Shown: in pieces, positions 11,401 to 43,568 of the stretch
Numbering within the stretch: position 1 is the stretch's first letter
Layout of the letters: each line of letters starts with the position of its first letter
NCBI GenBank assembly: GCA_024220525.1
Contig: JAMYWO010000297.1
Span: 1 to 45,380 of the forward strand
Direction: 5' to 3'
Length of the DNA: 45,380 nucleotides
Source of the DNA: Cochliopodium minus
Lineage: Eukaryota; Discosea; Himatismenida; Cochliopodiidae
Position numbers and translations under genes: made by a program
The notes under the pieces: generated by a model
Seen by the model: only the letters and a program-made list of their open reading frames with translations
Told to the model about the DNA's origin: nothing
Database searches by the model: none

Positions 11401-14400
11401 TTCTGCTAAAAGAAGTAAACTCACACAAATCATCGAGAGGAACACTGATAAAATGCTGGAAAAAGCCAAGCAAAGGTTTTTGGGTTTGGTGTGAAAGGAT
11501 TTTCTCGGTGGCCTGAGAAGAAATATCGATTTCTTCTTCTGAGGACTGTTCATTTCTGAAAATTTGGACAAACAACTCTTTGACACAAGTGGCTATCCTG
11601 TCAGTACTCTCGAAAAATTGTTGGCCCAAATACTGTATAATCTCTTGAGAATACATGATAATAGGACGTCCCACATTCCTAATGAGGGAAGAAAGCAACA
11701 TCAAAACGACACTAATGAACTCATTAAATTTATTGGGTAATAGAGAAATTTTAGAAGACTTGTAAGTATCTTCCAAACGTTGGTACAAATCCAGATAGTT
11801 TTGGCTGTCCGCAAAATACCCTTCGTTGTCGCTCCACTTTGTTTTTGTTCCAATGATGAACTTCTTTTTGAGGGAAGGACAAGACTTTTCGTCTTTGATA
11901 CTTGAAAACATGTTGAGGAGTTTAAGAACGTGAATCAGAACATCAACCCAGTAATTTTTCAAATTGGATCCAGCTTTTCTTACCAAACTGTTTATCATCT
12001 TTATTTAATATTAAATTTTTTCAACTAAATAATATTCTTTCAGAAACAATCTTACTGTGATTATATCAATGTGAAGATCCAAATCGAGCATCATATCTGT
12101 TTCTGTCAAAAATTGAATGGTAAAAGGAACAATATCACAAAAAAAGACGGAAGTAGGATTTGGAAATGAGTAATACTGTTTGTCCACTTGAACTTTTTAC
12201 AAAAATATTTAAAAAATTTTTAAATATTTAGAGAAAAGAAATCATTCCAAAAAAGAATTTATTTTTTTTTACCCTTGTTCTCAAAAAAAACGTGTTCCAC
12301 ATAATTTTTTGGTTTACTGTAGCATACAATGATGGACTTTAGAGCAAGGTACAAACCTTTAATCTTGGTTTTGCTGTTCTTTTTGGAAATTTCGCGCATT
12401 AAAATGCCGAAAACAGAAGAAAGATTAGAGACAAGATTTTTTTTAATGGGAGCCTCAGACAAGTTCCCAAACATCAAAACTTTGTTCAAACGATGGAACA
12501 AACAATTATAACGATTGATTTCAGTATCGCTGAGTTCAGTGAAAAAGATCAGGTTTTTGGTGATTTTCATGAGCGAATCCGCAGCTGCCTCTCTTATCTT
12601 TGAGTCCTCGTTGGCGAGATGATCAATGATAAACTCGATGCAGATTTTTTGGAGATCAAAACAGTCGCTTTGGTTCATGAAATAAAGGTAAGAAAAGTCT
12701 ATTTTGGTGAGGAGAGAAAGAATTTCAGTATTAACAAGGAAGTAGTTGTTTGTGCAACCAAGTAACTGCTTGATCAAAATGGGGTACAAATTTTGAAAGA
12801 ATTTCCCTATTTTTTGGAAGCAAACTCCAAATCCAGAAACAGCAAGCTTGGAGGTAACAGAAGACTTGTCATTCAAAAATTGATACATCACTTCATCGAT
12901 CAAGTACCTCACGTCCAACCAACTCGTATCGTTGTCATTAGTCTTTAAAAACTCAGTGTCATTTCCAATGATGGCATTCAAAAAACATCCAATGAAATAG
13001 GCAACATTTCCTCTTACCAAAGGATCTTCATCTTTAGAATACCCAAATACCAACTCAAAAATTTCTACAGAAAAAGTTTATAATATGAAAGTTTGTAATA
13101 AATTTTGGTTTACCTTTTGATTCTTTGGAAATTGATCTCAAAAATTCTTTTTCAAAGCTTTTTGCGATCAAACCAATCGCATATATCGTTGCAGCTTTGA
13201 TACCTATTCATTTTACAAAAAAATTTTGTTGTAGAAAAAAAAAATATAAATGATAAAGAATAGCTAAACCTGTCCTTGTTTTTTTATCTTTTAAAAGGTT
13301 TTCTAACTTTACAAGGATGGTGGGAACAAACTCTAATTCCCCGAAATTCTCTTCTTCATAAACAGGTGAGCCATTGCTGTTATTAAACTCTTCATTTTCA
13401 TCAGTAGGTTTTTGTTCCTTTTTGAACCATGCACGGTGAAGCAAAGTGTCTCCATAACAGCCCAAAAGGTTGGTCAACAGCTCTATAGTACCATTAACTA
13501 CGTTGTGGTTATCATGGCTGATGAATTTTACAATCACTTCTGTCAACAAAGGAGTATAGTCTATCATAGGGTTTTTTGGATCGAGGGTTCTCTTGCTCAT
13601 CGAGTCAGACAGCCTCAAAAGTTTCGAAAAATTATAAAAAACACCCTGAATTCGTGTCACTTCGATATTTTCTTCAACCAAGAAATTATGTATGCCAGAC
13701 TCTTTCACTACGTACTGGAAGAGTGACTTGGGATACAAGTTACAGATGCAAATTATGATATCGCTCGCAGATCTTCTGATGCTCGCCACTTTGTTGGAGA
13801 AATTAGCGATACATAGATTTATCACTTGTTGCACCTCCACTTCCCTCAGATAGAAGATCAATACATCAAATATTCTCTCTAAAGATATGCTCAATGTTTG
13901 TTGCAACAATTCTCCGCCATTCTTTATCATATCTTCTATCAATGGCATCAATGATGTGATATATTTTCTACATTTCGATGGTCTTATAAATTTACATAGC
14001 TCTCCGAATTTTCCCACTGCTATTCTTTGTGATTTTTCGTTATCTTGTGTCTGCATGAATATTTTGTGAATATTTGAATTATTTTTTGTCAATATGTTAA
14101 ATAAATTACAATTTTGTGATCTTACCTTTATTAATTTGAAGATCTCATACATTATTCTTTCTATATGTAAAGTATTTTTCAATGCCTATTCATCATTTTG
14201 CAAAAATATAAACAAAATTATATAGAAATAATTGGTGAATGAAATTAATATTACATGTATAAGTTTATTTAAATTTTCATCTGCTGCTGAATTTATTGAT
14301 ATATCTGTATCTCCTATCACCTTCAATAATGATGTAATAGATGCTGTCAAAAATCTTGGAAATTCTGTTGTATTTCTTTTCATTGTACAATAGGATTAGA

Positions 14401-32900: not shown

Positions 32901-35168
32901 CACCGTAGATCTTCACTTCATAACCGTCGTTCTCCACTATTTTTTTTCTGGTGAGTTCGCAGTAGGATCTGACAGCCAAAGCCATGAGGGAAGGTTTCTT
33001 AGCCCATAAACCAGTAGAGTTTGTAACTCCTAAAAAAAAAAGAAAAAAAAATTTCATTTTCGAAAAAAAAAATTTTCGAAAAATTTTAATTGAAAAAAAA
33101 AAATGAATTAAATATTAAAATGAAATAATATAAAATTGATAAAAAAAACAAATGAATTTTTAAAATGAATTAAATAATTTTAAAAACAAATGAAAGTATT
33201 TTAAAAAAATTTGATATGAAATAATAAATAAAATTAAATGAAATAAGAAAATAATCTTTTACCTGTCGAAACGAGCGTTACCACACCAGTAGGTGCCAAA
33301 ACTTTAGCTGCAGGTTGATGAGACTCAAAGGAAAACTTTTGGTTGAGGATGGTCAACTGGCTCTCGAAGTCCTTGATCTGGTTGTTGATCTCTGTGATGT
33401 CCTTCTCGAGCCTGTTGTTGTTGGAGAGGGTCTTCTGGATGGAGACGTCGAACTGCTTGAGAGTCTTCTCCATTTCCTCCGTTACACCCACGTTAGTCAA
33501 CTTGTTCTCTTCGGATTGTTGCAACTTGACGGAAAGTTGTTGATTGGTCTCGTTAGCTCTTTGCAACTTGTTGGACAACTTCTCTTGGTTGAGTTGCAAG
33601 GTGTCGAGCTGTTTGATGGTGGATTTCAGGACTTGTTCGGTGTTGCCCTTGGCGGAAGCTTCCTTGAGCTGTTGCTTCATGCTACGGATGTGGTTTGTTC
33701 CCTTTTCGGATTTGACTTTGAGTTTTTGGAGTTTGGTTTTGAGATCCATGTTTTTGCTTTCGAGATCTTGAACCTTGTCGAAGAGATTATCTTTTTTCTC
33801 CTCTTCTTGGTTTCCTCCAATATCGTGGAACTTTCTTTCTTCGAGTACTCTTGGCATCAGTTGAAAGATATGTGTATCTCTGTTCAATCCTTTCAATCTA
33901 TGTGTTCCGAGATCTTTATGGATTGGATCTCCCAACTCTTTCAATTTCTTTTCGACTTCTTCCCAAACTGTTCCTGAAATCAAGATTTGTCCTCCATCCG
34001 CAATTCCTTCAACTCTTGCAGATTGATTGACCATTTGTCCAAAGTAATCCATTCTTCCTGTAACTGGATCTGGTTCTGCAGATGGTTCTCCTTTGTTTAT
34101 TCCCATTCTAACTCTCAAACCTCTATAAATCATTCTGTTCTTTGAATCGTATTCAGTGATAGATTCTTCATTTTTCAACAATTCTTCAGGCCATTCTTCC
34201 TTCATCAAACTTTGTTGCAAGTCAAGACACCATTTCACTGCATTGATACACTCTGCAAAAGCAACCATAAATGCATCTCCTTCTGTTTTCACTTCATATC
34301 CTTGGTAGTCTTCCAATTTCTTTCTCATTATTTTGTTGTGGATGGAGATTGCAGGTGCCATTGTTTCAGGATCTTTTTCCCATTGGACAGTTGATCCTTT
34401 CACATCAGTAAATACAAGTGTGACTGTTCCTGTTGGTGGTGGAACACTGTTTGAACCAGGTTGCAAGTAGAGAGGCAATTTGAGAGAAATAGCTCTGAGT
34501 TGTTTTGAAAGTTCTTCGTTTTGGTTTCTCAAAAATGAGATCTCATCGTTGGTTTCGTTAAAGTTGGTCAAAATGTTGTCTATTTGGTTTGTTCCATCAT
34601 TCAAAACTTGTTGCAATTCTTTATCGTTGGAAGCTTTTTCTTTTGTTTGTTGGAGTTGCATGCTGATGATATCTTGATCTTCAATCAATTGAGAAATTTC
34701 TTGCAAAGCAACCTTAATCTGTTCTTCTCCAAGAAGTCCTTGTTGTGCTTTCAAAAGTTTTTTACGTAAGACTTCTGCTTTCTTAGTTGCATTGGTAGAA
34801 GAATTGGAAACGTTATCTAACTTTGAAACTAAAGATTCATTTTCTTGAGCGAGTTTTTTTAATTGTTCTTGAAGTGATGAATTTTCTTCTTTTTCTTGGT
34901 TTCCCCCTCCAATTTCATGGAATACTCTTTCTTCAAGTTCTCTTGGCATCAATTGAAAGATGTGAGTATCTCTGTTCAATCCTTTCATTCTGTGTGTTCC
35001 AAGATCTTTATGAATTGGATTTCCCAACTCTTTCAATTTTGGTTCAACTTCTTCCCAAACTGTTCCTGAAATCAAGATTTGTCCTCCATCCGCAATTCCT
35101 TCAACTCTTGCAGATTGATTGACCATTTGTCCAAAGTAGTCCATTCTTCCTGTAACTGGATCTGGTTC
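29942..35168 (-). CDS. multi-domain adenylyl cyclase (class III), 5' end missing
   Basis: Nine exons, about 1,225 residues visible, cut off at 35168 by the undetermined base. Order: C-terminal half of cyclase domain 1 (EPDPVTGRMDYFGQMVNQSA...), coiled coil, complete domain 2, coiled coil, degenerate domain 3, coiled coil and a helical C-terminal region. Domain 2 (about 34440-33840) has everything expected of a catalytic class III unit: metal Asp in TLVFTDVKGST, second Asp in VKTEGDAFMVAF, GLRVRMGINKGE, and the Asn/Arg of MDYFGQMVNQSARVEG. The style (FTDVKGSTVQWEKDPETM) resembles fungal Cyr1 and protist soluble cyclases. Domain 3 has STGVTNST instead of FTDVKGST and MDYKGPMSKRAIK instead of the VNQSAR block, so it cannot be catalytic alone. 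The last about 280 residues (from PHNVVLTKKAKSYFKSVIKR) match no family I know. It would make cAMP in the cytosol. Stop TAA at 29942-29944. Confidence 0.87.
30770..30900 (-). repeat. AAAATTAAAATA-type microsatellite in a cyclase intron
   Basis: About 130 bp of near-perfect ttaaaataaaa units fill this intron. Similar A-rich arrays (aaaaaata) lie at about 32695-32780 in another intron of the same gene. They have no coding content. Confidence 0.85.
33841..34076 (-). repeat. cyclase internal repeat, copy B (part of domain 2)
   Basis: This 236-bp segment aligns without gaps to 34933-35168, offset 1092 bp, with about 15 differences counted by eye, only one of them in the final 110-odd bases nearest 35168. 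It encodes EPDPVTGRMDYFGQMVNQSA and the following block to LMPRVLEE. Confidence 0.85.
34933..35168 (-). repeat. cyclase internal repeat, copy A (part of domain 1), ends at the N
   Basis: Gap-free partner of 33841-34076. The match runs up to the base before the undetermined position and then stops: copy B continues tgcagatgg, while here the sequence is nacaaagaa. Domain 1 is therefore cut in mid-domain exactly at 35169. Confidence 0.88.
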
Positions 35169-35169
35169 N
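35169..35169. other. undetermined base (N) at the meeting point of two 5'-truncated genes
   Basis: This is the only N in the window. On the left a minus-strand cyclase gene lacks its start; on the right a plus-strand gene is already open and lacks its start. Both reading frames run into the N. It probably marks a contig or scaffold join, or the edge of an unresolved repeat. Confidence 0.85.
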
Positions 35170-38100
35170 ACAAAGAAATGAAAGAGATGATATCTTGGCT
35201 TGATCTAATCAAAAAAGAAATACAAGAAGTAGATGTTGATGAAAATGAAAAAAGATTGTTTTGTGAATGGATTGATGAAATGATTGAGAGATTCCAAGAT
35301 GGAATGGATTCAAACAAAATCTATTTTGATCTCAGAAAGTTGTTGTTTTTCATTCAATGCGGATTCGAATCTCAAGAAAATCTGAATGGAAAATCAATAG
35401 TTCTTTTTCTTGGCCAATCTGGATCTGGAAAATCAACAACTATCCATTATCTTTATGGAATCACAATGTTCTTGAAAGAAATCACATATATTCATTCACG
35501 CATTGATCAGAATGGAATCGTAAAAGATTCAAAGAGAACTAAAAAAGTGATTGAAGGAGAGACAATTCTCGACTCATTTAAGATTGGGCATGAAATGAAA
35601 TCTGGAACAAAGTAAAATTAAAATCCCAAAATAATTGTTCTCTTCATTTTTATACCTTTAATTCTCCTATCGATATTCCTTTAAAGATTTGTGAGAGTGA
35701 TCGAAATCGAAAACAAAAATGAAGAGAAAAACTTTTCAAAAATACTTGCATGTGATACACCAGGATATGGAGAAACAAGAGGACCTGAACTGGACCTTGC
35801 AAATGCAATTGGTGTTTCAAATGCAATCAAATCTTGCAAATCGATCCTTCCTGTTTTGTTAATACCAGCTTTTGCACTCAAAGATGTCAGAGTTGGTCTG
35901 AAAAAAGTTGTTGAATTGGTGATTGACTTCTTTGGAGATATCCAAGTGTTTGAGAAAAAGTGTTTGATTTGGTTCACTCATTGCCAAGATACAAAAATTG
36001 ATGTAATAAGAGATGTTGCAATAGACTCTATCAAAGCTGTTGAAGAAGAAAAACAAATGACCGAAGATGAAAAAAAAAAATCAATCAGAGTTTTGAATTT
36101 TATCATTGGAGAAATTGAAGACAACCAAGAATCATCTGTCAAAATAATTGACCCTTTAAAAACAAAATCTCTTTCAAGTTGGATCAAATTGGTTGACAAC
36201 CCAAAGAAATACATGGATGATCCTTCGAACAATTTGAAATATCAACCAACTCAAACTTCTGAACTGAAACTTTCAAGCACAATCGGTTCAATCAAAGATA
36301 AAATTCAAAGATGGTTGAATGAAGAAAAGTATGGAAGAGTATTTTTTGAAATTGAACTTCTCCAAAAAATGAAATTATTCATCAATGAAAGTTATGTGAG
36401 AAATCCATTTAATTGGATAATTGAAACCATCTCAATTCATTTCACTCAAAAGATGGAACATGTTTTCAGAATGTATGATGATTCACTCCAAAACAGTTTC
36501 ATTGAATTGCAAGATAATACATTGATTCACTCCATAAATGTTTTCAAAACACTCCAATACTCTATATTTTTCAGGTCTTTCATTGATAATCCCAATTTTG
36601 GTCCTGAGAATTTCCTTTCTCAATTACTCATTAAAGCAGAGAAATTGAAAGAAATCATTAATGAGAAAATTGATCAGTTCATTCCTCCATTAAATGAAAT
36701 CAAGTTTGATGTTCTTAAATTGGAAAAGATCAAAAACCATCTGTTTCCTTTTCAAGAAAGATTTGGATTTATTTATGAAGAAACAATCGGCATAATTGAA
36801 AGAAAAATTGAAAATATTATCACAATTTGCAATAGACCAGAGTCATTGGAAGAACCAACAAATCTTGGAAAACTTCTCTTTTGTTTGATGGAATCACCAA
36901 ATCACATTCAACATCTCACTCAAAGAAAATTGAAAGAAGATTATTCAAACATTGTTGAAGGGATTGAAAAATCGATAAATGAAAAATTGCAAACCATTTG
37001 CAACAAAATAAATGAGAAAATTGAAGAAGAATCTGTTGAAATGATCAGAAGAGAATATCAAATTTTGAATGAAGTGATTGTTTCGGAAGAACTCAAAAAA
37101 CATTTGTCTGCAACTCTTGAAAATGATCTCTCAAACAATTTCACAACAAAAATCATTGAGAAATGCAATTTAATTGTGAAGAAAATTAAGAAGAAAATTG
37201 ATGAAGAAGAATTTGATGAAGAATTCAAAGAAGATATGATGACTTTGATCAATTTGAGAAAATTAAATTTGAGAATAACTGAAGCAAGTGATTACATATT
37301 TAGAGAGTTGAGAGAATTTGTTGAATTGAAAATCAAAGAATGGATTGATGATTTGATGAACGAATTGAAAAAACTGAGAAATGATGAAAACATCAACATG
37401 AAAAAAATGATTGAAACATTTCAAAAGTTGTTCAATAGTATTTGGCTCGACGAACACTTTGGAAACTTGATTTCAAGATGTTTGAGAAGGACTTGTGAAA
37501 GGTTGATTGAATTTTCTGATGAATTGAGTGAAGGAATAGAAATTGATTTTGAAGAATCTAAATTTGTCAATGTTGCTTCGAAATTCAAACAATTAGAATA
37601 CATCTCAAATTGTAACGAATTTATTTCAAAATTTGAAAAAATGAAGATAAAAAAAGAACCATCTTCCCCATCACCTTTTTCTTTTGAAAAAAGTAGTGTA
37701 TCTTCACAAGAAAATCAATCAGAAATTTCATCTGAAAAAAATTTAAATCCAATGAGCCCATCAAGGCAAAAAAGTAAGGTTTTGTTGAATTTTGAAAGAT
37801 GTAAACTGTTTTTAAGAGAAAAATTGGAAGATTTGACAAAAAAGTGTAAAGAAGGAATGGATGTTAAAGTGAATGTGATAGACACAAATTTGAAGAAAAT
37901 TTTGGAGAATATATTAAAAGAAGAAGTAAAATCTCCTAGGACTTTTCCCAAAAAAGAAGAAATACATGAATCGAATCAAGAATTGGTTATTCTAGGGGAA
38001 TTAGATAGTTTGAAATCTCCAACAAAGATAATTGAAAATTTGAAAATTATTGAATTATTGCGTCCTACTTCAAAGTTGATTTCATTTGATTTGGATTTCA

Positions 38101-41100
38101 ATGAATTTATTAATGAGAAAATTAACGAAAGAGTTGAATTTTTAGAGTCACTCATTTGTAAATACCTTAAATACATAGTTGAACGCTTTGAAAAATTCGC
38201 CATTGTTAAATTTTCTTTCTCCATCATTTCTATTTGCTTCAACAAACTGAAAGAATTTTACATCATTCATGATAAATTTCCTGCTTTTGTGATTGAGCAC
38301 ATTAACTTTGAAAATATATTCAACAAATGTACAACTGAAACGACAAAAGCATTAATCCAGGTTCACGATAATTTCAAGGAAGCAATTTCTCTGAAAAACT
38401 TTGATCTTGCTCAAAAAAATTTTGATGTGATCAGAGAAGCAATGTTTACAATTGATATCAAAATAACTGACAAACAAACCAAGAACCAAATTATTGTTTT
38501 TGAGAAGATCAACAAATTTTATGAAGAATCAAAAAAAGAAATGCAGCAATCAAAAAAAGATGTCGCAGGAGAATTAGAAAATCATTTCATGAGCTATGAT
38601 TTCTACATGATTTCTCAACTTTTAAAACAACTTGATAATTCTTCTCACAAACAGCTATACAAGCAATATCTCACCAAAACTAGACAGTTTTGTTCAAGCT
38701 TTATTCAAAAAACTGGAAGACAAATCAACCAGTTTAATATCTTGGATGAAAATTCTGCTCGTGAAATACATGATTCAATCGAAAAATTGGAAAAGATTGA
38801 GGAAAATCTGGAAGAGAGAATTAATGAAAAATCTGATGAAAAGTCCAAAAAAGTAGATTTTCAATCATTTAAAAAGGAATTTTTTGAAAGAATCACTCAA
38901 AAGATCAACAATGAAATTGAAAGATTGAAAAAAATGACTTTTGAAATCAAGAACGAAGAATTAGATAAAAAATATTCAAAATTGGAGGAAATTTTAAATT
39001 CTTTTTCTCCCTATGAAAACGAATTTGTTGTTCCAAAAGAAAAGCCAAATCTAACTGTTAAATCTGGAAAACCAACGAAAAAAAGTCTTCCTAATCTTCC
39101 TAAAAGGGGGTCAAAAAAGGCTGAGAAATTAGAAAGTGAAGATAAAATTTTGGATGAGAAAAAAGAAAAAGAAAAAAAAAAAGAAAAAGAAATAAAAATA
39201 GAAACAGAAAAAGAAACACTAAGAGAGAAACTTGAAAATTTGAAGAACAGCCAAGAAGAAAGAATGAAAACTAGAATCAAAGAAGAAATATACAAGTGTT
39301 GTCAATACAAAGAAAATGAAACTTTTTCATTGGAAAACTTCATTTATGTTGACACAAAAGGATTGGAAGAAATTTATGAAAACAACAAAAAATATGTTCA
39401 TTTGGCCAATGAAATTTTGAGGGAATTTGTGGATCTTAGATGCAAATTTTTTGTTCAAAAATCCAATCATAGTTTACCAAAAGTTATTGAAAAATTAGAA
39501 GAATTTTCTGAACAATTGAAAACATTTTCGGTGGATAATAACCTCCCTCTCAACAAAATCATTGACCAAACAATGGAAAAAATAAAAAAACAGAAGAAAG
39601 GAGTGATAGAAGAAATTGTAAAGAGTGTTGAAAGAGATGACTATTCAAAGCTCAAAGAAGATTTCAATAAAAACTCTGAGTTACAAGAAGAAATTGTAAA
39701 CACGTTGACAGAAACAAACACCAAGAAAATAAATTCGTTGATGCTCAAGATAGAAAAAAATAATTTTGAATCAATTGAAATAAATGAAATCAAACATTTG
39801 GAAAAATGTTCAAAAGAATTGGTGTCTCTGGATCCAAAAATCAAAGAGATCTTCAAAAAATATGAGGAATTTAGAGACATCAACATTAAAAAGAAATGTG
39901 AAGATATTTTCAAAAATTCATTGCACAACATCTCAGAAAGTGAATTTGATCTGATCTTCAAAATAGATAGAATTTATGGAGAAATCACAAAATCTCACCT
40001 CTCAAAAGTTCTTCCTCTTATCAAAAATGAACTGACTAAGACAATTTGCTCCATTCAAGCATTGATAGATCAAAGAAAATACAAAGAATTGATCAACAAT
40101 TTGATTTCTCTTCAAACTTATTCCAAAATCATCAAAGTGTTCCAAAACCTTGAGATTTCAGATCTAAGCGATAATTTCTTCCAAATCAAAAAAGAAATCA
40201 ATAATCTTTGTAATAATCCAAATTCAAGTCTTTTAAATGTACAAACAAACTTGAAAAAAAGTATTGATAAAAATATTGAATTCATGTTAGAGCTATGGAA
40301 AAAATCAGAATTTGATCGTCTTGAAAATGAAATCAAAGTTATGAAAGATATCAATTTATTGACAAGGTTTATCTCAAATGTTGATCAAATGTTGAACGAA
40401 GTTACAAAACCTCTCATTGATAATTATGATAAATGTAATGAAGAAGCAGCAAATATAGTTGAAGAAGTAATTGATTCTATGGGTTTTTCTTTGTTGGAAA
40501 AGGAAAATGATCTCAAAATGATCACGAGGCTCCTCAAGAAGATGAAATGTATTGAAATTTGTTTGAAAGAAATAAATTCTTCTTCAAAGTGTCACTCTAT
40601 TTCTATTATTTCTTTGATTGAAAAGAAGATTGAAAGTAAAGTAAAAGAATTCAAAAATTCAGTTGATGTATCAGAACAAGTGAGCAACATAATAGAGCTC
40701 CAAGCAATTTCCAGTAACATCTTTGATTGTGAAGAATACTGCAAAAAGAAAATCAATGAGTTGATCTCTAAATATAAAAACTTGAAAGAAAATTCTTTGT
40801 TTGAATTGGGGAAACTGTTGGAAGTTAATGAATCGGCATATGGAAAGGAAGTCGTTTTTTCATTCATACAATTCAAGTCTTTGTCTGTTGAAAAATTTCT
40901 CGAGGTAACAGGAAGACAAAATGAAATCTATGCACTGAATGAAACGGAAGGAGACGGATTATCTACAAATGAAGAACTCAACAAAAAAAAACAGCAAGGA
41001 TTGGAAAGATATGAACAAGATCCACTAAGAAATGTACTACTTGAAAGATACAAAGAGTATGACAAGAAATACAATGAACTTTTCAACAAATACTTCTGCT

Positions 41101-43568
41101 CTTCAAACAAAGAAGAAGAAATCTTACAAGCCACCAAAAATGAGATCAAAGTAACCAAATTAAACCACAAAGATTGGAACGAAAAAACTTGTGATAAGAT
41201 ACCCATAATCCTCGCCCATGTGTTTGTGATGTGGACATTCATGAATTCGGATCTAGAAAGTAATAAAGTTGCTCTTATGAAGCCACATGCAGTTCAAATT
41301 CTCTCTATTTTCAGATTGTTTGGTCTCGATACTTTTAAACCCTCCACTTTCCAAAAAATCGGATCTTTTATTGGGATAAATAAGAGAGAGCTTGAAAATC
41401 ATTTGATTCAAATTGGAACAGGAGAAGGAAAATCTGTCACTCTTGCAGCTTGCTCGATCATGTTTGCTTTGTTTGGCTATGAAGTATCTTGTATTTGCTA
41501 CAGCAAATACCTTTCGGATAGAGACTATGATTCCTTTTTGCATCTCTTCAAAATTTTCAAAGTTGATGGTTTGATTTCTTATTCGACCATCAAAGAACTT
41601 TGTGAAAAAGAAATCAATAGAGAAATCAATGTCAGGGATTCTTCCCTCAAATTTTTGAGAGGAAATCTTCAAGATCAAATCTACAAATCTTGCCAAAAGA
41701 AAAAAGTGTTGTTGATTGATGAAGTTGATGTTTTTTTCAGCAAAGACTTTTTTGGAAATACATACAATCCACTTGCTCTTTACACCAGTGAAAATGTGAG
41801 AAAATTGATTGAATATGTTTTCAAAAATGATGTAAAAGTTGCTCAAATCAGAAATTCAAATGAATACAAAGCAGTTTTGAATGATTTCAAAGATTTTGAA
41901 TTTATTCTCAACAACGAAATCACAAAGATGTTGATAGATAAAAAAGATATCAACAATCCTCCTTTCGTGGTATTTGATGGAAAGATTGGTTACAAAGAAT
42001 TTGATGGTATTTCGACAACAATATCATGGGGATATAAAACTCAATTTGCATACATCCAAAAATTTGGAGAAGGATTGATAAATGAAGAAGAGAAAAACAA
42101 AGCATTAGGCCTCAGAATAAATTGTGGAAAGTTTTCATATGCCGAAATTCCTCACCAATTTGATTTGATTATGGGAGTAACTGGAACATTGAAAACTTTG
42201 ACTCCAACTCAGAACAAAATCATTGAAAGATATCAAATAACCAAGAAAACATACTCTCCTTCAATGTTTGGGACCAGCAATTTTAGTTTCGCCGAAGTAG
42301 GAGATTTTTGGGTTGAGAAAGAGAAAGAACAAAGATTTCTCAAGTTGTTCAACGATTCAAATGAAAAAATCGAAAGAGGAAGAGCTGTTCTGATTTTTTT
42401 CGAAAATGAAGATGCTCTGTTGGACTTCAAACACTCCAAATACTGCAAATTCAAAGACTTAAAAATGAATGAAATCACTCCTATCACTAAAACCCAAGAA
42501 AAATTATCTTTGATCAAAAATGCAACAAGATCGGGAAATGTAACTTTGTTGACAAGACAATTCGGGAGAGGAACTGACTTTTTCTGTCTTGATCAACAAA
42601 CAATAAATGCAGGAGGAGTTCATGTCATTCAAACTTTCTTTTCGGATGACATTTCTGAAGAGATCCAAATTAAAGGAAGAACTGCAAGACAAGGTCAAAA
42701 AGGATCGTTCCAATTCTTGTTGAGTGAAGAGGATGTCACGAGATATGTTTCACTTGAACAACTCGAGAAATTTTTCACAAGCAAAAACAATATCTATCGT
42801 GAAATGTGCGAAATAAGAAAAATAAATTTCGACAAAGAATCTGAAAAGTTGATTGAAAGTATCAACAAAGTCAGAGATAACGATGAAGACAGTGTCAACC
42901 TCAAATTAAACCTCCTTTATTACAAAAATGGAACAGATTCTAAAACCAAGTTGATCCAATATCTCAATAAATTGAATCCTATTGTGAATGTCAACATGGA
43001 AAAAGATTATCATGTTATTTTTGTGTTGGATTGTTCTGGTTCAATGAGTTGCAATGTAAAGGGACTCTACGGAAATGAAACCAGGTGGAGTTGTCTTGTG
43101 GGAGCAGTCAACACGTTCATCACTTCAAGAAGAAATGCAAACGCAAGAGATATCATCTCCATCCTAGAATACTCCCATGTAGTACACCCCGAGTGCGAAA
43201 AGGCTCCTCTCAATGAAGATTTCAACAGGTATCTCAAGTTTCATGGAGGAGGAACAAGTTTTTCAGTTGGATTGAACGAGGCAAACAAAGTACTTAGCAG
43301 GAGTGATCACTCTATTTACACACCATTGCTTCTTTTCTTGTCGGATGGTGAGAGTGATGATGGAGACAATGAAATGAAACAAATCTTCAATGCCTATCAC
43401 AAAAAAGGTTTGATCGTGAGAACCATAGGATTTTGTGATGGTGCTCAACAAAAGCTCGAATCTTTGGCTAAATTGGGAGGCGGATCCTTCTTGAATTCTA
43501 TTAATGGAATTGAACTTGAAAAAACATTTGCCGCCATTGCTTACCAATTGGAAAGTGGACAAATTTAA
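35170..43568 (+). CDS. giant GTPase-like / SecA-type DEAD motor / vWA protein, 5' end missing
   Basis: About 2,770 residues are visible: exon 35170-35611, one 75-nt intron, then 7.9 kb without a break to TAA 43566-43568. The first in-frame ATG (35178) is probably internal. Head: Walker A GQSGSGKST (35412-35438) and DTPGYGETRGPELDLANAIG (from 35754), like AIG1/Toc-type GTPases. Then about 1,700 residues of lysine/glutamate-rich helical sequence. The motor has SecA motifs in order: MKPHAVQIL (Q-like), GTGEGKS (41415-41435), YSKYLSDRDY, IDEVDVFF (from 41715), GVTGT (42174-42188), FGRGTD (42561-42578), GGVHVIQTFF and GRTARQG (42675-42695). SecA's C-terminal domains are missing. Instead a vWA follows, with MIDAS DCSGSMS (43029-43049), GGGTS (43245-43259) and LSDGESDDG. 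A role as an ATP-driven protein remodeller or translocase is inference. No signal peptide is visible. Confidence 0.85.
35612..35686 (+). other. spliceosomal intron in the SecA/vWA gene
   Basis: 75 nt, starting GTAAAATT and ending TTTAAAG. Removing it joins GTK to FVRVIEIE in frame between the Walker A and DTPG parts of the GTPase-like head. It is the only intron I can find in this gene and shows that the gene is eukaryotic, not a bacterial contaminant. Confidence 0.85.

Follow-up and report, generated by a model that had tools for sequence, protein, structure and literature searches.

SecA belongs to the textbook machinery of bacteria and plastids. Midasin holds a motor and a vWA domain with a metal-ion-dependent adhesion site (MIDAS) in one giant chain. 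In MoxR-vWA and Midasin machines, NTP-driven motors are paired with MIDAS-bearing vWA domains (PMC7159879). SecA-related domains have also been reported as secondary SecA_DEAD proteins in Planctomycetes-Verrucomicrobia-Chlamydiae (PVC) and other bacteria (PMC4452313), in Amoebophilus effectors, which carry GIMAP-type GTPase and SecA-like helicase-related domains (PMC3482391), in Legionella fallonii lfa2470, termed 'SecA DEAD-like' (PMC4256840), and as a SecA-like ATPase in actinobacterial toxins (PMC8195603). Here, we describe a gene in a 45,380-nucleotide stretch of Cochliopodium minus (GenBank assembly GCA_024220525.1, contig JAMYWO010000297.1; hereafter the window), which makes up the entire contig C294 of a host genome of 44.65 Mb in 598 contigs. 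The spliced gene (35172–43568, plus strand), which is incomplete at its 5' end, encodes at least 2773 amino acids (aa), in which a P-loop GTPase-like head is followed by an arm of approximately 1450–1460 aa, a SecA-type motor and a vWA domain. We coined the name GSV (GTPase, SecA motor, vWA) for this family, and we lean towards reading its product as a GTP-gated, ATP-driven protein-remodelling machine, for which we infer a cytosolic location. Like GSV, the PVC proteins place SecA_DEAD outside canonical SecA, while the terms 'GTPase' and 'von Willebrand' are absent from the text searched in that source (PMC4452313). The Amoebophilus effectors and lfa2470, from amoeba-associated bacteria, share domain types with GSV; they are named in one sentence or table row, and the passages concerned mention neither a GTPase-SecA-vWA layout nor a eukaryotic family or a mechanism (PMC3482391, PMC4256840). 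No paper on a GTPase-SecA-vWA family was found in the literature searched, which covers few subscription papers or bioRxiv preprints.

The motor was shown to be of SecA ancestry with intact motifs, and its modelled overall fold is SecA-like. The Pfam SecA_DEAD profile matched at 37.4 bits, above the curated cut-off of 24.6, and a PDB sequence search of the window protein retrieved SecA at 4e-10; P-loop_SecA (19.1 bits, cut-off 27) and Helicase_C (14.8 bits, cut-off 23.5) gave matches below their cut-offs. The Walker A and B motifs and the remaining superfamily 2 (SF2) motifs follow the order and spacing of SecA, and the insert between DEVD and VTGT comprises 152 residues, as compared with 162–185 in eight of nine canonical SecA rows and 289 in the ninth. 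The likeness to SecA and SecA2 extends from the motifs and their spacing to a PPXD-sized insert, a long helix after nucleotide-binding domain 2 (NBD2) and the overall fold. In the structure model, the alignment to SecA spans the insert, the whole motor rather than the insert alone having been compared, and the 42-residue helix at the place of SecA's long scaffold helix falls within the aligned range, a placement made at the level of that range. A first-pass annotation of the window had proposed a SecA-type motor with its motifs in the right order, preceded by a second P-loop domain, followed by a MIDAS domain and encoded by a single intron-bearing gene; each of these elements was recovered, with a significant SecA profile match, a phylogenetic position apart from canonical SecA and a model of the motor and vWA region in which both folds are predicted. 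SecA is itself an SF2-type motor, and it is conceivable, although improbable, that such a motor was turned to RNA or DNA as a nucleic-acid helicase recruited by the GTPase and vWA domains. The weak Helicase_C match (E 0.036) and the designation of one Heterostelium relative as 'helicase' would agree with this, but the PPXD-sized insert is retained, SecA proteins are its closest structural counterparts, and the Pfam search of the window protein lists no nucleic-acid-binding domain.

Beyond the motor, GSV departs from SecA and SecA2, in that there is no room for the wing, the two-helix finger or the C-tail, and a vWA domain stands there instead; both sequence and model leave only about 100 residues between GRTARQG and the vWA, the final helices ahead of the latter being model residues 641–682 and 688–701. 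By comparison, a Paenibacillus SecA (L060, 847 aa) has 229 residues beyond its motor match. A further difference is the GTPase-like head and the arm of about 1450 residues in front, together with placement in a separate, long-stemmed clade. Canonical SecA identity was rejected on the grounds of the tree, the NCBIfam cut-offs and the absence of SecA's C-terminal domains. These observations also bear on the notion of an organellar preprotein translocase working with a SecY-type channel, which SecA homology would favour and for which any targeting signal would have lain in the lost 5' end. We consider this quite improbable, as the approximately 100 residues with two helices after NBD2 are too few for wing, finger and C-tail, the motor clade is separate from canonical SecA, and a paralog on contig C2 of the same genome carries SAM_2 domains (1.1e-11) upstream of its P-loop exon. 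Another paralog, on C100, similarly has extra sequence ahead of its aligning part, and the upstream frames of both probably belong to the same genes as the GSV parts.

The C-terminal domain scored above the curated Pfam cut-offs as VWA_2 (35.2 bits, cut-off 27) and VWA (33.0 bits, cut-off 23.8), in agreement with the vWA fold of the model. Its MIDAS residues are intact in DCSGSM, GGGTS and LSDGES, including the Thr and Asp of the latter two motifs that we take to bind the metal, and 90 of 109 C-termini, that of the window protein among them, contain the pattern D-x-[STC]-G-S-[MF]. The nearest working analogy is the MoxR-vWA/Midasin pairing (PMC7159879), with SecA replacing the AAA+ motor of those machines; no AAA+ profile exceeded its cut-off in the window protein.

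The head shares the G1 and G3 motifs of septin and AIG1 (GIMAP) GTPases (GxxGSGKST and DTPG). AIG1 or septin identity, which had been put forward for checking by the first-pass annotation, was not reached: no AIG1 or septin Pfam profile exceeded its cut-off for exon 1 alone (146 aa, a search weakened by the intron that splits the head), AIG1 scoring only 13.5 of 27 bits (E 0.044) and septin being unlisted. In a PDB profile search, septins and GIMAPs appeared only at about 1e-3, with ABC, Midasin and other P-loop proteins equal or better. The helical nature earlier ascribed to the arm would fit its composition, as judged by the Pro+Gly content (Table 1).

A search with residues 1780–2627 of the exon-2 frame returned 302 proteins, the best 120 of which were analysed and are referred to below as the listed relatives. 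The head profile (built from 10 sequences, 9 of them members) matched 90 of the 120, while the motor and vWA profiles, built mostly from the same 120 proteins, matched 120 and 105, respectively, and all three matched in 78. These vWA counts were obtained with a profile starting at the MIDAS; a profile including the linker behind the motor gave 117 of 120 for the vWA and 88 of 120 for all three. In all 78 relatives with the three domains the order head, motor, vWA is identical (median arm 1445 residues), and because this order recurs in the listed relatives and in unbroken bacterial frames such as that of locus L011, a chance architecture is excluded. Named sources comprise Hydra, bdelloid rotifers, Heterostelium, Tetrahymena, Blepharisma, Reticulomyxa, Hexamita, Pelomyxa, Arcella, diatoms and a gammaproteobacterial metagenome-assembled genome (MAG), with all three domains present in Hydra, rotifers, Tetrahymena, Blepharisma, Pelomyxa, Epithemia, Thalassiosira and that MAG. 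The two Heterostelium copies stop after head and motor, with no vWA; no head was matched in the Hexamita and Arcella entries, and two of three Reticulomyxa entries checked lack the head and one the vWA, some of which may be partial models; all 30 headless relatives have fewer than 1740 residues ahead of the motor. At least two more GSV genes that have all three domains, those on C2 and C100, are present in the host genome. Additionally, an isolated GTPase-like head with the start of an arm lies at 200.4–203.1 kb of C2 (L095), some 20 kb from the full copy and with no motor within the 20 kb fetched, while C174 (L005:5295–9998, minus strand) encodes a different giant SecA-like protein (ETGEGKS, DEVD, GLTGT, GRVSRQG) outside the GSV clade.

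GSV is, on sequence evidence, a widespread family with eukaryotic and bacterial copies, which the first-pass annotation had missed, and its layout is conserved in eukaryotes distant from one another. A scan of prokaryote species genomes yielded 44 loci. Eight of these (L011–L018) reached 1e-132 or better against the motor profile, and the one ranked after them (3e-47) falls in a second SecA-like group. Head, motor and vWA are all present in L011, L012 and L013, while L017 is cut by a contig end. Among the genomes with bacterial copies are MAGs that bear the labels Legionellales and Chlamydiae. GSV is rare in both groups that were sampled: it was present in two of 151 genomes taken from the phylum to which a Protochlamydia MAG belongs (Chlamydiota-type), and 140 genomes from the order that includes Legionella nautarum contained no GSV-type gene, so that a common gene of Legionella-like bacteria was rejected; the same 140 genomes gave one match at the 1e-20 level (27% identity, 3.3e-21, a 1026-aa frame), which was read as belonging to the second group. 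L011 adjoins dnaE and is followed downstream by an ankyrin-PARP gene and a recJ-like gene, L012 is flanked by an alpha/beta hydrolase and a GGDEF-EAL gene, and the copy in genome G210 lies on a 1.1-Mb contig. Mis-binning of eukaryotic contigs is therefore an unlikely explanation for these three copies. Viral origin was rejected, as 74 pattern-matching stretches in viral contigs showed no encoded relative by tblastn.

Phylogenetic analysis was performed as a quick tree of 75 rows and a careful tree of 56, after dropping 19 rows for long branches, incompleteness or redundancy, neither tree containing cyanobacterial or plastid SecA. The GSV motors formed one clade in both (support 100 and 100/100, respectively) on a long stem (2.4 and 2.9), apart from canonical SecA, itself a weak clade (90; 79/88), and from the second SecA-like group. 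The window motor is sister to the C2 paralog (100/99), bacterial copies lacking the vWA lie at the base of the clade, and L011, L012, L013 and relative P0034 are nested in the group that holds all eukaryote-labelled rows (95/98). The careful tree has 32 such rows (18 named or from the host genome, four from EukProt and 10 environmental, assumed to be eukaryotic). Approximately unbiased (AU) tests rejected a single clade of all 32 (p 2e-6) and of all nine bacterial rows (p 2e-71), the former of which could stem from a mislabelled row, e.g. P0016, because 10 nameless rows were counted as eukaryotic. A bacterial GTPase-SecA ancestor, gain of the vWA, several transfers and later vWA loss in some lineages would fit these trees, in which the basal long branches could mislead.

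For the GSV protein as a remodelling machine, the following course of action may be envisaged. The head would switch with GTP and place or oligomerise the protein on its target, the long arm would connect head and motor, and the motor would clamp an unfolded polypeptide and move it through ATP hydrolysis, presumably without SecY, because the wing, two-helix finger and C-tail of SecA are missing. The vWA would grip an acidic residue of a substrate or adaptor via Mg2+, as in MoxR-vWA and Midasin machines. The use of the machine might lie in protein quality control or in dismantling foreign proteins, as hinted by the U-box, ubiquitin, J-domain and GBP found in some relatives. The initial suggestion of a machine gated by nucleotides and acting to unfold, move or remodel proteins is in this respect still the best inference rather than a demonstrated function. 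Several observations weigh against it. The NCBIfam SecA models score far below their cut-off (56 bits versus 862), because of which the window protein is not regarded as a SecA orthologue, and global superposition on SecA is loose (root-mean-square deviation 6.6 over 554; Foldseek TMq 0.35–0.44 for the SecA rows). The G4 (N/T)KxD position of the head is unclear, reading FTHCQD in the window and FTKY or similar in several relatives. Furthermore, the vWA is not universal, since 15 of the 120 listed relatives have no match (13 of these, including the two Heterostelium copies, with fewer than 150 residues past the motor) and the basal bacterial copies lack it, those of L014, L015, L016, L018 and G210 ending shortly after the motor. 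Finally, the extra domains are found in a minority of the listed relatives (precomputed annotation: DnaJ in eight, U-box in two, and ubiquitin, GBP, Jacalin and FNIP in one each) and are absent from the window gene. The DnaJ carriers are P0029, P0086, P0089, P0103, P0107, P0110, P0111 and P0112, the two named ones being diatoms; in P0086 the domain lies about 370 residues ahead of the SecA_DEAD match and would bring Hsp70 near a SecA-type engine.

A role in cell-autonomous defence shares this mechanism and names its purpose: the head would coat bacteria that have invaded the cell, or the vacuole around them, and proteins would be pulled off or apart by the motor. The GBP domain of P0013, a relative with no head match, the septin/GIMAP-like G1 and G3 motifs, the fact that Adineta, Reticulomyxa and Epithemia each contribute several divergent copies to the listed relatives, and the presence of the gene in bacterial MAGs with Legionellales and Chlamydiae labels are consistent with such a role; however, GBP occurs in just one of the 120 and the bacterial copies may serve an unrelated use. 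We regard this role as unlikely, though not far-fetched. With respect to the family at large, we suggest only tentatively, and with somewhat less conviction than for the remodelling activity itself, that many eukaryotes hold a large, undescribed cytosolic class of SecY-free SecA motors, GTPase-gated and polypeptide-threading, with a vWA holding the substrate, which would have arisen from a bacterial GTPase-SecA by vWA gain and crossed between eukaryotes and bacteria on more than one occasion. If true, eukaryotes would have a new class of motor for protein remodelling alongside the AAA+ unfoldases, a SecA-type engine with intact motifs in giant proteins of animals, amoebae, ciliates, forams, diatoms and diplomonads. 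The layout predicts GTP gating, polypeptide-stimulated ATPase activity and metal-dependent ligand capture.

The coordinates of the gene and its features are collected in Table 1.

Table 1. Features of the GSV gene and its upstream junction in the window
Feature	Position	Strand	Remark
Single N, assembly join	35169		Sole non-ACGT base of the window; true 5' end of the GSV gene absent
Exon 1, 5' incomplete, start of head	35172–35611	+	P-loop GQSGSGKS at 35412–35435
Intron, 75 nt, GT..AG, spliceosomal-type	35612–35686	+	Within the head
Exon 2, unbroken frame to TAA	35687–43568	+	Remaining head, arm, motor, vWA
Head G3/Walker B, DTPGYGET	35754–35777	+	
Arm, approximately 1460 residues	36534–40916	+	No Pfam match at 0.1; Pro+Gly 3.4%
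SecA-type motor, PPXD-sized insert, then long helix	41022–42986	+	Structure-model residues 51–705
Motor Walker A, GTGEGKS	41415–41435	+	
Motor Walker B, DEVD	41718–41729	+	
Motif VI, GRTARQG	42675–42695	+	
42-residue helix after NBD2	42792–42917	+	Model residues 641–682
C-terminal vWA with MIDAS	42999–43565	+	DCSGSM at 43029–43046; GGGTS; LSDGES

The window is eukaryotic, given its introns and matches to huntingtin, RasGEF and RhoGEF. In the spliced protein the motifs GQSGSGKS, DTPGYG, GTGEGKS, GRTARQG and DCSGSM begin at residues 81, 170, 2057, 2477 and 2595, respectively, and the splice across the intron is supported by the bacterial copy L011, which has the head in one uninterrupted frame. 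The minus-strand neighbour at 33234–35204 encodes a cyclase protein (Guanylate_cyc 1.5e-29), in which a 263-nt segment is present twice, 1092 nt apart; because the second copy stops exactly at 35168, the N that follows is an assembly join that truncates the GSV gene. This genuine join is what might suggest an artefactual architecture, created during assembly or gene prediction, a possibility we regard as close to negligible, since it lies upstream of the P-loop while the rest of the head, the arm, the motor and the vWA share one frame, and the same order recurs in 78 of the 120 listed relatives and in the unbroken L011 frame. For the motor and vWA an artefact is refuted, exon 2 being a single frame of 2627 codons that holds both, and their location on separate transcripts, raised by the first-pass annotation, falls with it.

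Among side observations, contig C1 of the host genome contains a longer repeat array of the same cyclase protein, and the window itself matches the N-terminal HEAT repeats of huntingtin at 12259–14185 on the minus strand (2.9e-20 and 8.7e-27). Elusimicrobia MAGs encode giant proteins of 5255 aa (L043:2161–17925) and 4433 aa (L047:3416–16714) with a SecA-like motor of the second, non-GSV group. In another bacterial MAG, a 772-aa frame matching the family vWA profile (6e-12; L048:13471–15786, minus strand) lies near a second-group SecA-like gene, motor and vWA being neighbours there, unfused.

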